Source: Candidatus Cloacimonadota bacterium (GTDB lineage: Bacteria > Cloacimonadota > Cloacimonadia > Cloacimonadales > TCS61). From it: a DNA stretch of 52,625 bases. Below are positions 18,619 to 23,882 of this stretch, piece after piece. A program made the translations under genes and the position numbers. Position 1 is the stretch's first letter; each line of letters begins with the position of its first letter. Location of the stretch: contig JAIPGP010000016.1 of the NCBI GenBank assembly GCA_021735645.1, positions 1 through 52,625 of the forward strand, read 5' to 3'. The notes under the pieces are model-generated. The model ran no database searches and had not been told where the DNA came from. It saw nothing but the letters and a program-made list of their open reading frames with translations.

Positions 18619-21069
18619 TTGGAAAAGTTAGCTCGGAAGATTTTATTTTTCATAATATTTATCCTTATAATATCAAGCTTGCAAGGTGAAGAGAAAGTTA
18701 TATTAAAAGTATTTTCACTTCCTGATCCCAAAGCTACTGATGCTTTTAACCGGGCAGATATGGAAGTGATCAAAGCATTCAAACAAAAATATCCCTGGAT
18801 AGAGCTGCGTTCTTTCTCTGGTATTCAAATTGAGAATATGGAGCTGGATGCCGGACCGCTCATGGCAATTGCCGGCGGTGTCTCGCCGGATGTGATCTAC
18901 GTAAATTTCCGCCAGTCAGATACTTATATCGAGAATGATTTTCTATATCCCCTGGATGAATTTCTGGCACGTCAAACTGAGCAGGAAATAGATTATCCCA
19001 TTGAAAAGCCGGTGATGCCTGTGATCAAGAGGAAAAAGGTTGGAGAATCTCAGGAGCATGTGTGGTGCCTTCCCTATGAAACCCTGGTGCGGGTGCTGAT
19101 GTATCGCAAAGACCTTTTTCATAAGGCAGGCATTGATCCTGAGCGACCACCGCAGAACTGGGAAGAACTGCTGGATTATGCGCGCAGGCTGACTATTCCT
19201 TCTGAGGGAGTATATGGTTTATTTCTTGCCTCGGGACCGGAAATGGCTTATGACTGGATAACCTATCTCTGGTCAGCGGGTGGCGATGCAGTATTGCAGG
19301 ATCCTTATACAGAAGAATGGTATGCGGCTTTTAATAGTGAAGCAGGTGTGGATGCCATGGAATTTTATCTGGATTTGATCACTACTCCCTGGATTGATGC
19401 GGAAGGTAATAAGCAGGAAGGCTTTGTGATCCGGGAAGGAGACTGGGGCAGGATGTGGGATGAGGGCAAGATCGGGATGCGGATGATGTATATGGATCAG
19501 CGTAATCTGGGGGGACAGATTGATCCTAATCTTTATGGAGCTGCTCCTCCGCCTTATGGACCCACAGGAGAGCGGGGTTCAGAAATAAATTCACGCATGA
19601 TGGGGATTTTTTCGCAAGCTGGAGAAACTAATAATGCCGGGCTGGGCGATCGTGATCCGCAAAAGGTGAAGGAAGCTGCCTGGAATTATATCTGGTTTTA
19701 TGATTCCGAGGAAGCGCGTCAGATCAGAATGAAAGTGATGATAGAAGCCGGTTATGGCAAGATGCAAAATCCGATCTATCTGCAGCGTTATGGTTATGAC
19801 GAATACCTGAAATATGTACCTCCAGGCTGGCTGGAAACCTTTGAAGAGGCGGTAGCCAGCGGCAATCCTGAGCCTTATGGGCATAATTGCCAGAAAATAT
19901 ATTACTTTATGACTTATCCCATTGAGACCTGTATTTCAATGGAGCGGGAAGGTAAACTGGGAGAAACCCGAGAGGAAAAACGGGGAAATATCAAGAGTAT
20001 TCTTGATAACGGTGTACAGCGGACAAATGAGAAGATGATCGGGAAAGTAAGCGAAGCTGAACGCAAGAAGCGCAACAGCATCGCCTTTCTGGTGGCAACA
20101 TTTATCTTTCTGGTTTTCGTTGTCTCGCTGATCAAGGTCTGGAAAATTTTCACTCCCAAAACCCTGGTACGAAATAAATCCAATCTGAAGAAAAAGAGTT
20201 ATTTCTGGGCGTGGATGATGATAATTCCTGCACTGGGTTCGATCATATTATGGAAATATGTGCCAATGATAATGGGCTCAGTGATGGCATTTCAGGATTA
20301 TCAGATCGTGGGTGACAGTCAGTTCATCGGTTTGCAGAATTTTGCGGATGTGCTGTTTGATCCCGTATGGTGGTCTTCCCTGGGCAAGACGCTTTATTAC
20401 ATGTTCTTATCCCTGTCGCTGGGATTCTTTCCACCGGTTATTCTGGCTATTCTGCTGCAGGAAGTATCGCATGGGAAGCTGGTTTATCGGGTCATTTATT
20501 ACCTGCCGGCTGTGATCAGTGGAGTGATCGTTATTTATTTGTGGAAGCTGCTTTATGACCCTTCCGATGCAGGAGGTTTGAACCAGATACTCATGGCACT
20601 GGGCATGGAAAAAAGCCGTTGGATCAGGGATGAGAATCTGGCAATGCTCTGCTGTATATTACCCACAGTGTGGGCAGGAGTGGGACCCGGCTGCCTGATC
20701 TATCTGGCAGCGCTGAAGGGGATTCCTGATGAAAATTATGAAGCTGCCGATATTGATGGAGCAAACTTTTTTCATAAGATAAGATATATCGTAATTCCTA
20801 ATCTGAAAGCTTTGATCATTATCCAGTTCATTGCTGCTTTCATCGCCTCCAGTCAGCAAAGCGGATTCATTCTGGTAATGACCTTTGGAGGGCCTAATGA
20901 AGCTACGCGAGTGGCGAATCTGCTGATCTTTGAGAAAGCTTATCTTTTTCTCAAATTCGGGGTGGCTACTACCATGGCATGGATGCTGGGTATGATGATG
21001 ATGGGATTCACGGTTATTCAATTACGCCGCTTAAATAAAATGGAATTTAAGACAGCTTCTGCTGAATAA
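18619..21069 (+). CDS. Fused ABC importer: extracellular solute-binding protein + MalF-type permease
   Basis: An 816-residue chimera. Residues 1-22 are a signal/anchor (ILFFIIFILIISSLQG). Residues ~25-470 are a family-1 carbohydrate-type binding protein (VSPDVIYVNFRQ, LPYETLVRVLMYRKDLFHKAG, GIMGIFS-like region). A transmembrane segment at 487-508 and a basic linker lead into a six-helix permease (525-805) with the EAA loop YEAADIDGANFFHKIRYIVI (707-726). Binding protein and channel are usually separate genes; here the binder is tethered to the membrane. The TTG start with AGGAG is the only sensible start. The next gene, 13 bases on, is the second permease. No ATPase gene is in the window. The substrate is probably a saccharide (inference). 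Confidence 0.88.
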   Translation: MEKLARKILFFIIFILIISSLQGEEKVILKVFSLPDPKATDAFNRADMEVIKAFKQKYPWIELRSFSGIQIENMELDAGPLMAIAGGVSPDVIYVNFRQSDTYIENDFLYPLDEFLARQTEQEIDYPIEKPVMPVIKRKKVGESQEHVWCLPYETLVRVLMYRKDLFHKAGIDPERPPQNWEELLDYARRLTIPSEGVYGLFLASGPEMAYDWITYLWSAGGDAVLQDPYTEEWYAAFNSEAGVDAMEFYLDLITTPWIDAEGNKQEGFVIREGDWGRMWDEGKIGMRMMYMDQRNLGGQIDPNLYGAAPPPYGPTGERGSEINSRMMGIFSQAGETNNAGLGDRDPQKVKEAAWNYIWFYDSEEARQIRMKVMIEAGYGKMQNPIYLQRYGYDEYLKYVPPGWLETFEEAVASGNPEPYGHNCQKIYYFMTYPIETCISMEREGKLGETREEKRGNIKSILDNGVQRTNEKMIGKVSEAERKKRNSIAFLVATFIFLVFVVSLIKVWKIFTPKTLVRNKSNLKKKSYFWAWMMIIPALGSIILWKYVPMIMGSVMAFQDYQIVGDSQFIGLQNFADVLFDPVWWSSLGKTLYYMFLSLSLGFFPPVILAILLQEVSHGKLVYRVIYYLPAVISGVIVIYLWKLLYDPSDAGGLNQILMALGMEKSRWIRDENLAMLCCILPTVWAGVGPGCLIYLAALKGIPDENYEAADIDGANFFHKIRYIVIPNLKALIIIQFIAAFIASSQQSGFILVMTFGGPNEATRVANLLIFEKAYLFLKFGVATTMAWMLGMMMMGFTVIQLRRLNKMEFKTASAE

Positions 21070-21082
21070 AAGGATATCAGAA

Positions 21083-23374
21083 ATGCCAATTATAGGAAAA
21101 GTGGGACGTAAAACCTTAAAAGTAAGAGCTTTGAGCCTGATAATACATATCGTGCTGCTGCTCGGTGCGGTTACTATGATCTATCCTTTTATGGTGATGA
21201 TCTCTGCTTCATTCAAAAGCAACGTCGATGCACAGACCTTCTCGGTGTATCCGCAGTTCTTTTTTGATGATGAGATGCTGTATCGCAAATACATTGAAGC
21301 CAGAATGAATGAACTGGGCGACAGGATGGCTGAGCAATATAAAAACCGGGCTCTCAGTTTCACACTGCTTGATTCTCCGGCAAAACTGATACTGCAGGTG
21401 CATGATGACTGGTTTGAATTTCTGGAGGAAAATTACCGGAAGCATGATATTTTTGATTACTATATTTCTGAGCAATATGGCAGAGGGATATACCCTCGCA
21501 ATGAGCGGAAATTCCGTAATTATATGAAGAAGAAAACCGGAGGCAGTCTTGACCGCCTGAATGAGCAATATGGCACATCCACTCTTAACTGGGATGAGGT
21601 GCGACTGGAAGAAACCGGCATAACAGGCAGGAATTTTAATGGTGACTATACCGGTTTTCTGGCAGAATATAGTGATTTCCGGCATGATCTGCCGCTTTGG
21701 CAAAGGGTATATGTAAGTCTGGATGGTAATTTCATCAATTCGGAATTACGTCCGCTTTTTAAGAATGAGATACGGCTGATGAATGACAGCCTGCAGACTA
21801 ATTTTATGAACTGGGAAGAGATCAAGCTGGCAGAAACTATGCCTGATGGTGCTTTGCAGCCTTTCTGGATCAATTATGTGAAGCAGCGCCTTAATATCCA
21901 TCATATTCAATTACTACCCGAAGCATTGGCTTCCTGGCAGGGCTATATTCAGGAAAAATATGATGATATCAGTCTGCTGAATAAAACCTGGATAACAGAT
22001 TATCCTCAGTTCAGCTCTATCCAAATTCCGGTAGAATTACCGCGCAGTGGGGCATTGCCGGTTGATTACACCTTTTTCATTGAAAATATTGCCCAGCCGC
22101 AATGGCTGAAAGTTACCTCAGTTGAACTCGATTACCGCGGGTGGCTGGCAGATAAATATGGCGATGTTGACGATTTGAATATTGCCTTTGAGCGAGGATA
22201 TAGTGAATTCAAAGAAGTTGAGCTGCCCTTGACAAATCCAGAATTCAATCTGGCTAAAGAAGAGGACTGGAGCTGGTTTGTGCGTCAGGAAGTTTATCCG
22301 TGGTCTATCAGACTAAAGCCATTGAGCCAGCAGGAATTCCTTACATTTATGCGAAAACTGCATCCCGGAAAAGACGGTTCAATTGATCTGGACAGCTTTA
22401 ATCGGGAATATAATACGGATTATGAACAGGAGATATTTATCTATCCCCCGCTCGCTTTGCCTGAAAATTTTAATTACCGGATGGACTGGCTCTATTTTGT
22501 GAGAAATGTTACGTCAAACCGTTTTCTGGAAGTTACTCCTGATAAACAAGGGGAGTGGATATCATACCTTGAATCAAAATATCATAATACCAGAGATTTG
22601 AATCAGGCATGGCACTTGAGCTGGCAGGATTTTAATCAAGTGTCGATAGATCATTACCAGATAGATTATAATATCTTTAAAGAGCATAAAACGAGTATCT
22701 TCTGGGAATTCGCCAAACGTAATTACGTGATGGTGCTGGATGAAATGCTCTATAACGGCAGGGCTATGCTGAATACTATTATCTATTGCCTGCTGGCGAT
22801 CATCTCTGCGCTTATCGTTAATCCTCTGGCTGCCTATGCCATGAGCCGCTATAAACTACCTGCCACCTATAAGATCATCCTCGTTCTCATGCTCACAATG
22901 GCATTCCCCGCAATGGTGATGGGCATTCCGAATTTCCTGATCATGAAAAAATTCGGGATGCTGAACACTTTCTGGGCGCTTATTCTGCCCGGACTGGCAG
23001 ATGGATATTTTATCTTCCTGCTCAAAGGTTTCTTCGATTCGCTGCCCAAAGAATTATTTGAAAGTGCCACCTTGGATGGTGCCAGCGAGTGGACAATATT
23101 CTGGCGGATCGCCATGTCACTTTCCAAGCCTATCATGGCAGTGATTGCCCTAAGTGCTTTTAATGCTGCCTACCGCAATTTCATGTTCGCTTTCATTGTC
23201 TGCCAGGATAAATCCATGTGGACAATGATGGTGAATATCTATCAAATGATGCAGCGCACCAGTGCCGGAGTAGGATTTGCCGCCTTAGTAGTAGCATCCA
23301 TCCCCACTTTTGCCGTATTCGTCTTCTTCCAGAATATTATTATCAGAGGAATTGTAGTTCCTACTGAGAAATAG
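21083..23374 (+). CDS. MalG-type ABC permease with a ~510-residue repeat insertion after TM1
   Basis: A 763-residue protein, more than twice the usual ~280. TM1 spans ~17-42 and ends in the family motif MISASFKS. Residues ~45-550 are an extracytoplasmic insertion made of about six ~68-residue units whose second half reads WxxYLxxKYxxxxxLNxxWxxxYxxFxxVxLP (units centre near 145, 222, 285, 353, 420 and 491). From 559 the permease resumes with PLAAYAMSRYKLP, the EAA loop ESATLDGASEWTIFWRI (660-676) and the C-terminal helices. The KYG...LN.AW pattern resembles a motif seen in some glycosidases such as GH42, hinting at sugar handling. It pairs with the preceding fusion gene as the heterodimeric channel. 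Confidence 0.88.
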   Translation: MPIIGKVGRKTLKVRALSLIIHIVLLLGAVTMIYPFMVMISASFKSNVDAQTFSVYPQFFFDDEMLYRKYIEARMNELGDRMAEQYKNRALSFTLLDSPAKLILQVHDDWFEFLEENYRKHDIFDYYISEQYGRGIYPRNERKFRNYMKKKTGGSLDRLNEQYGTSTLNWDEVRLEETGITGRNFNGDYTGFLAEYSDFRHDLPLWQRVYVSLDGNFINSELRPLFKNEIRLMNDSLQTNFMNWEEIKLAETMPDGALQPFWINYVKQRLNIHHIQLLPEALASWQGYIQEKYDDISLLNKTWITDYPQFSSIQIPVELPRSGALPVDYTFFIENIAQPQWLKVTSVELDYRGWLADKYGDVDDLNIAFERGYSEFKEVELPLTNPEFNLAKEEDWSWFVRQEVYPWSIRLKPLSQQEFLTFMRKLHPGKDGSIDLDSFNREYNTDYEQEIFIYPPLALPENFNYRMDWLYFVRNVTSNRFLEVTPDKQGEWISYLESKYHNTRDLNQAWHLSWQDFNQVSIDHYQIDYNIFKEHKTSIFWEFAKRNYVMVLDEMLYNGRAMLNTIIYCLLAIISALIVNPLAAYAMSRYKLPATYKIILVLMLTMAFPAMVMGIPNFLIMKKFGMLNTFWALILPGLADGYFIFLLKGFFDSLPKELFESATLDGASEWTIFWRIAMSLSKPIMAVIALSAFNAAYRNFMFAFIVCQDKSMWTMMVNIYQMMQRTSAGVGFAALVVASIPTFAVFVFFQNIIIRGIVVPTEK

Positions 23375-23882
23375 GAGACTGCCATAATCACACCCTCACC
23401 GGCTATATGACCATAGGGCTTATAGGACTTATAGGACTTATAGGTCATATAGAGAGGAATTGGTGAAACTGGCATCCCCCTGCTTTATTTTGTTTTCATA
23501 GCAGTAGCTTTAACGATAACTAACCAGATAAGTAAGACTTGCACCGCTAATGTTACTCCAGAAGTGGGGCGAGGATTACGTGACTCGGAACTCGGGATAA
23601 GTCCCCAGTCCGCAATCCCAAGTTAGAGTTATCCACTTCCATAACTGATTGACAATGATCGTTATCTGCGCCGCATCTGTGAGTACACCGGCGCTGTACA
23701 TATAACTTTAAAGCAGAAATATAATTGACAGGTAATGCCAGGAAATCGGTGAAAATCTTGACAGGAAAATGGGGGTGGGCGACTTTGTTTTTCATAAAAG
23801 CTGGAGGTCTGTATAACCTGAGAAGTTATTAATTTGTTTTGTTTATTTACATGAGATCAGAAAGGTTAATAACGGAGGTATA
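23375..23882. other. Intergenic region with repeats
   Basis: About 500 bases. Besides the inverted/tandem repeat at 23403-23452 it contains a segment at about 23650-23710 (GATCGTTATCTGCGCC...CACCGGCGCTGTACA) related to the island at 12075-12310. GGAGGTATAGTGG at its end introduces the short ORF at 23883. No full gene was seen. Confidence 0.5.
23403..23452. repeat. Inverted repeat enclosing three 9-base tandem repeats
   Basis: CTATATGACC (23403-23412) and GGTCATATAG (23443-23452) are perfect inverted repeats. Between them CTTATAGGA is repeated three times in tandem. It lies just after the permease stop. It could act as a terminator-like hairpin, but there is no T-run. Confidence 0.6.

Follow-up and report, generated by a model that had tools for sequence, protein, structure and literature searches.

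A binding protein–MalF fusion and a repeat-bearing MalG probably form a conserved, ATPase-sharing CUT1 importer of mannosylated glycans

How does a carbohydrate ABC importer operate when its binding protein is fused to a permease and no ATPase is encoded nearby? The question is raised by two adjacent plus-strand genes on a 52,625-nt contig of a Candidatus Cloacimonadota bacterium (JAIPGP010000016.1), the whole of which is called the window here. The first gene, ORF1 (18619..21069, 816 aa), has a TTG start with AGGAG ~6 nt upstream and is conserved over its full length in relatives. It begins with a hydrophobic export signal or anchor without a lipobox Cys (aa 1–24, 18619..18690; AlphaFold2 helix 2–20), followed by a family-1 solute-binding domain (SBP; ~aa 26–470, 18694..20028; Pfam SBP_bac_1 at aa 48–336, E = 1.5e-22). 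Its Foldseek matches were sugar SBPs, with 5ci5 and 6dtq the best, and the fold is common to many oligosaccharide binders. A 33-residue helix (aa 479–511, 20053..20151), which is kept in the alignment of relatives (A1), leads into a six-helix MalF-type permease domain (aa 522–814, 20182..21060; BPD_transp_1 at aa 618–799, E = 3.7e-08; NCBIfam UgpA/MalF matches) whose EAA-type coupling loop (aa 703–727, 20725..20799) contains near-invariant residues in alignments A1 and A4. The AlphaFold2 model (mean pLDDT 85.5, pTM 0.80) has these parts in the same order: N-terminal helix, SBP, long helix and six MalF helices. The Pfam domains and the model bear out the original prediction that a binding protein is fused to a MalF-type permease, and the long helix is the extra transmembrane segment predicted at the junction. 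Judged by sequence, SBP and MalF form a single chain with a 1:1 stoichiometry.

ORF2 (21083..23374, 763 aa) starts 13 nt past ORF1 and encodes the repeat-laden MalG-type permease that had been predicted. An insert of ~480 aa separates TM1 (aa 12–42, 21116..21208) from TM2. The membrane domain past the insert (aa 536–756, 22688..23350; BPD_transp_1 at aa 585–757, E = 2.6e-13) matched SugB, MalG and AlgM2 in Foldseek (including 8hps_B and 3rlf_G), and its EAA-type coupling loop (aa 655–683, 23045..23131) contains near-invariant residues in alignments A2 and A3. In the AlphaFold2 model (pLDDT 88.6, pTM 0.82), TM1 is followed by six helix-strand-helix-helix units (aa 104–534) and then the MalG core. 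The units correspond to six divergent repeats of 61–88 aa, R1–R6 (aa 104–523, 21392..22651), which carry a motif resembling a fragment of GH42. Sequence shuffles supported kinship for several pairs (z up to 12), most strongly R1–R2 and R3/R4/R6, with other pairs weak. A repeat HMM found 3–7 units per ORF2 homologue, and array length varies: the equivalent of ~two units is missing in relatives that belong to three other families. The largest MalG relative seen (L163 3582-6455) has 958 aa.

Together, the two MalF/MalG-type subunits with EAA coupling loops and the family-1 SBP give the pair the permease and binding parts of a CUT1 importer, and ORF1, with SBP and MalF on one chain, has the layout of an SBP-TMD fused one. 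The topology of MalG would place the insert in the periplasm; the models of ORF1 and ORF2 are of single chains and are silent on contact between insert and SBP. What sets the system apart is its repeat-built MalG. None of the best 50 Foldseek matches was specific to the insert, and the literature searched, which lay mostly outside subscription journals, yielded no account of a MalG bearing a repeat insert of this kind. The MalG core is also matched by a PHROGs family of unknown function (phrog_1577, E = 5.7e-21); this phage protein family therefore contains a MalG-like domain. Just 3′ of ORF2, at 23409-23450, lies a short tandem repeat of the GGACTTATA type. A scan for promoters and terminators gave results at chance level.

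The fusion was found in 18 of the 59 genomes searched, including its own (17/58 related genomes). Fourteen aligned relatives share 61–96% identity with ORF1, and their alignment crosses the junction without gaps except in a short loop past the linker helix. A wider scan of one genome per species yielded 80 best loci, at 79 of which SBP and MalF lie in one ORF; the exception is cut by a contig end, and in one of the 79 (L206) the SBP is split in two. These loci come from Cloacimonadota, Delongbacteria, Lentisphaerae, Kiritimatiellae, Verrucomicrobia, Omnitrophota, Hydrogenedentota and Sumerlaeota and from the cultured Oligosphaera ethanolica, taxon names that are mostly those of MAG records and as reliable as the binning. 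The repeat insert was present in 17/18 fusion genomes vs 0/41 others; in the remaining fusion genome (G027), the contig bearing the fusion is only 4.9 kb long. At five distant loci (L165, L173, L205, L207, L208), no solenoid MalG lies directly downstream of the fusion.

Variants of the arrangement were also seen. One genome, Candidatus Tenebribacter davisii by its record title (G029), has two fusion–MalG pairs (L086 on C70, L088 on C69) with GH130 near each. A stand-alone SBP of 464 aa from the ORF1 SBP subfamily adjoins the fused gene at L172 (8385-9779), and two loci (L231 4477-6255, L233 3315-5084) encode MalF-like proteins of ~590 aa with a C-terminal permease core and ~285 extra N-terminal residues.

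The reading that we favour, with moderate confidence, is a tethered importer of alpha-mannosylated Man-beta-1,4-GlcNAc-type oligosaccharides that is driven by an orphan MsmK-like ATPase encoded on another contig (C31). Between them, ORF1 and ORF2 would supply all of the membrane and ligand-binding portions of a CUT1-type importer whose binding protein is built in. The tethered SBP, presumably on the periplasmic side, would hand its ligand to the MalF/MalG pore, and the repeat array of MalG, which should face that side too, may act as a docking scaffold or partial enclosure. ATP hydrolysis would be provided by the C31 ATPase, which would dock on the conserved EAA loops and also serve one or more further CUT1 systems. 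The cargo, as suggested by gene neighbourhoods and co-occurrence, would be an alpha-mannosylated oligosaccharide with an N-glycan-like Man-beta-1,4-GlcNAc core. A cytosolic GH38 alpha-mannosidase would trim it and GH130 would split the remainder into mannose-1-phosphate and GlcNAc, with help from GH20 in relatives.

What would the importer carry? The genes beside the pair in the window have no relation to sugars, which counts against the favoured reading: a ribonucleotide reductase gene on the minus strand precedes it, and peptidases of the C25/M6 type follow downstream. In many Cloacimonadota, the operon runs on with GH38, GH20, GH130 and a CBM9-like protein, and at Delongbacteria-type loci GH130 lies upstream, in three of them (L137, L158, L177) directly before the ATPase. 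Among near-complete genomes, GH38 accompanied the fusion in 13/13 vs 2/25 without it (Fisher p = 1.9e-08) and GH130 in 11/13 vs 3/25 (p = 1.9e-05), p-values that are optimistic in that related genomes are counted as independent. Of the genome's own enzymes, GH38 lacks an apparent signal peptide and most resembles Ams1, and GH130 most resembles TM1225 and next UhgbMP. Both lie on contigs other than the window's, a further point against. Removal of mannose from N-glycans is a listed activity of GH38, and cleavage of Man-beta-1,4-GlcNAc one of GH130 (review PMC10154615). Because of the operon partners, the co-occurrence of GH38, the relatives of the genome's own enzymes and these known roles, N-glycan-like oligosaccharides are our leading guess for the cargo.

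The same importer and shared ATPase might instead serve another cargo, such as beta-mannan, plant or fungal mannan oligosaccharides, or sugars in general. The GH130 relatives include beta-1,4-mannooligosaccharide phosphorylases (5ayd), GH92 and GH85, families of N-glycan trimming and release, were absent from all 59 genomes searched, and the breadth of the SBP fold noted above suits many ligands. GH20 is absent from the own genome, and around the sampled Lentisphaerae-type and other distant loci the mannoside gene set is missing and no common catabolic theme emerged. However, pure beta-mannan does not readily account for the recurring set of GH38, GH130 and GH20, and the association of GH38 with the fusion is the strongest seen. 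We regard a different cargo as unlikely, though a serious contender.

Which ATPase would drive an N-glycan importer of this kind? The prediction that none is encoded nearby holds for the entire contig, which has none of the 53 ABC_tran matches in the genome. MalK-type ATPases with an OB domain (OB_MalK) number exactly two in this genome, which is 95% complete: one on C141, which closes a cluster containing an amylase-like gene, and the orphan on C31. Elsewhere, an MsmK-like ATPase adjoins the pair at seven loci, upstream in five (L135, L136, L137, L158, L177) and downstream in two (L159, L180), in Delongbacteria and some other genomes. It is thus well supported that, as predicted, the ATPase of the window pair is shared or located elsewhere. 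In the ATPase tree, the operon-linked ATPases form a lineage separate from the orphan clade. Replacement by a shared ATPase is thus a better reading than simple relocation, and the separate lineages fit a dedicated ATPase that gave way to a shared one, or a change in the opposite direction. The C31 ATPase had a match at 62% identity or more in 13/13 near-complete fusion genomes; since ATPases of the MsmK-like kind are also present where the fusion is missing, C31 is not tied to the fusion as a dedicated partner. Within the stretches read, neither the window pair nor a permease pair on C123 has an ATPase of its own, and C31 is therefore likely to be the shared motor of the window pair.

Alternatively, the ATPase on C141, from the maltodextrin cluster, could be the motor, alone or along with that on C31: both are of the MalK type, and CUT1 systems are documented to share ATPases (PMC4519317), as has also been proposed for an N-glycan importer (PMC5215778). 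We consider this rather unlikely, as C141-type ATPases lie beside amylase-like genes in the own genome and in two others (G001, G015), whereas the orphan has its match in every near-complete fusion genome. At its locus (L050, G000:C31 2422-6988), the orphan gene follows genes that resemble those for FtsA, FtsZ and FKBP, and among the loci fetched its adjacency to FtsZ was confined to the genus and G015. MsmK of Streptococcus suis is reported to interact with FtsZ (PMC8546688); the link to this neighbourhood is possibly a coincidence.

The fusion could be thought a diverged form of a known maltodextrin transporter. At L047 (G000:C25 982-5307, minus strand), the own genome encodes a second SBP–MalF fusion of 759 aa, which has the domain order of ORF1 and a similar TM linker, is likewise of the CUT1 type and is accompanied by a normal MalG of 278 aa. 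Its SBP domain has as its best PDB match 6ffl (E = 1.5e-96), which we take to be the MalE domain of the MalE–MalF system described by Licht and colleagues, reportedly from Bdellovibrio. A MalE–MalF CUT1 fusion is characterised in that work, as cited in PMC7756565 (ref. 38; Licht et al, 2019, Res Microbiol 170:1-12, pmid 30193862). The SBP–MalF fusion is therefore not new in kind, and the claim that such fusions are uncommon for CUT1 importers needs to be qualified, given one already characterised and a second in the same genome. In G015 (L226), the counterparts of the C25 and C141 genes form a single cluster, made up of the fused MalF, its MalG, the amylase-like gene and the ATPase of the MalK type. 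Because this cluster continues from C141-type genes to the second SBP–MalF fusion, C25 and C141 of the own genome (L047, L051) are probably one maltodextrin system. The genome thus holds a fusion of the Licht type separately from the window pair, and 6ffl was not among the PDB matches of ORF1. Moreover, the MalF domain of the window fusion falls in a clade other than that of the C25-type fusion, and a single clade was rejected (AU p = 0.0007), a comparison that carries a long-branch warning and reaches the published protein, which is outside the tree, only through the C25-type fusion. Common descent with the maltodextrin fusion was rejected as an explanation on the same test and with the same reservations, and we consider descent of ORF1 and ORF2 from that transporter very unlikely.

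It is still more doubtful, to the point of being highly improbable, that the insert in MalG works as an active glycosidase domain of the GH42 type within the translocation path. The GH42 beta-galactosidase family (PF02449) shares a short sequence motif with the ORF2 repeats, reaches 45.5 bits on the insert and matches 40/50 homologues. However, the best stretch covers only profile positions 151–213 of 376 (63 positions), and in place of a complete TIM-barrel catalytic domain the model has a repeat array with no barrel; the Foldseek matches listed were ABC permeases only. Finally, an assembly or annotation artefact in which a lost stop joined two genes, a caution raised by the original prediction for which no support was found, is as good as ruled out because this junction recurs in 17/58 related genomes and SBP and MalF share one ORF at 79/80 best loci from many phyla. 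The refuting pattern, homologues with two separate genes and a stop lost in this assembly alone, was thus not observed.

The tethered mannoside importer with a repeat-bearing MalG and a shared ATPase remains the probable reading of the pair. More tentatively, it may represent a CUT1 subclass of its own that occurs across many phyla. The tethered SBP and the periplasmic MalG array would have co-evolved in it into a chamber that delivers large mannosylated glycans, and the array, with its variable number of repeats, would handle or gate the oligosaccharide. Such a subclass would be a natural test of docking geometry and SBP stoichiometry in ABC import, and the proposed route would be one of glycan uptake for Cloacimonadota, a group of poorly known metabolism.

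CUT1 importers are textbook ABC importers whose extra periplasmic mass is known on MalF. In E. coli MalEFGK2 it lies in MalF P2, whereas in the window system it is a repeat array on MalG between TM1 and TM2. The two systems are alike in their MalG/MalF membrane cores, EAA loops and expected MalK-type ATPase (2r6g, 3rlf), but the SBP is soluble in E. coli and fused to MalF in ORF1. The N-glycan importer NgtS–NgtP1–NgtP2 of Streptococcus pneumoniae likewise has no ATPase nearby, with MsmK the proposed motor, and a GH38 proposed to act with it in the cytoplasm (PMC5215778); its SBP is separate, unlike that of the window pair. The fate of Man1GlcNAc in the pneumococcal system is unknown (PMC5215778), whereas GH130 would handle it here. 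The MalE–MalF importer of Licht et al (2019) resembles ORF1 in having a CUT1 SBP and MalF on one chain, with a single SBP per MalF. Judged through the C25 fusion, the window system differs from this type in its MalF clade and SBP subfamily, in a MalG that carries a 480-aa repeat insert where the C25 MalG is a normal one of 278 aa, and in relatives with a mannoside rather than an amylase neighbourhood.
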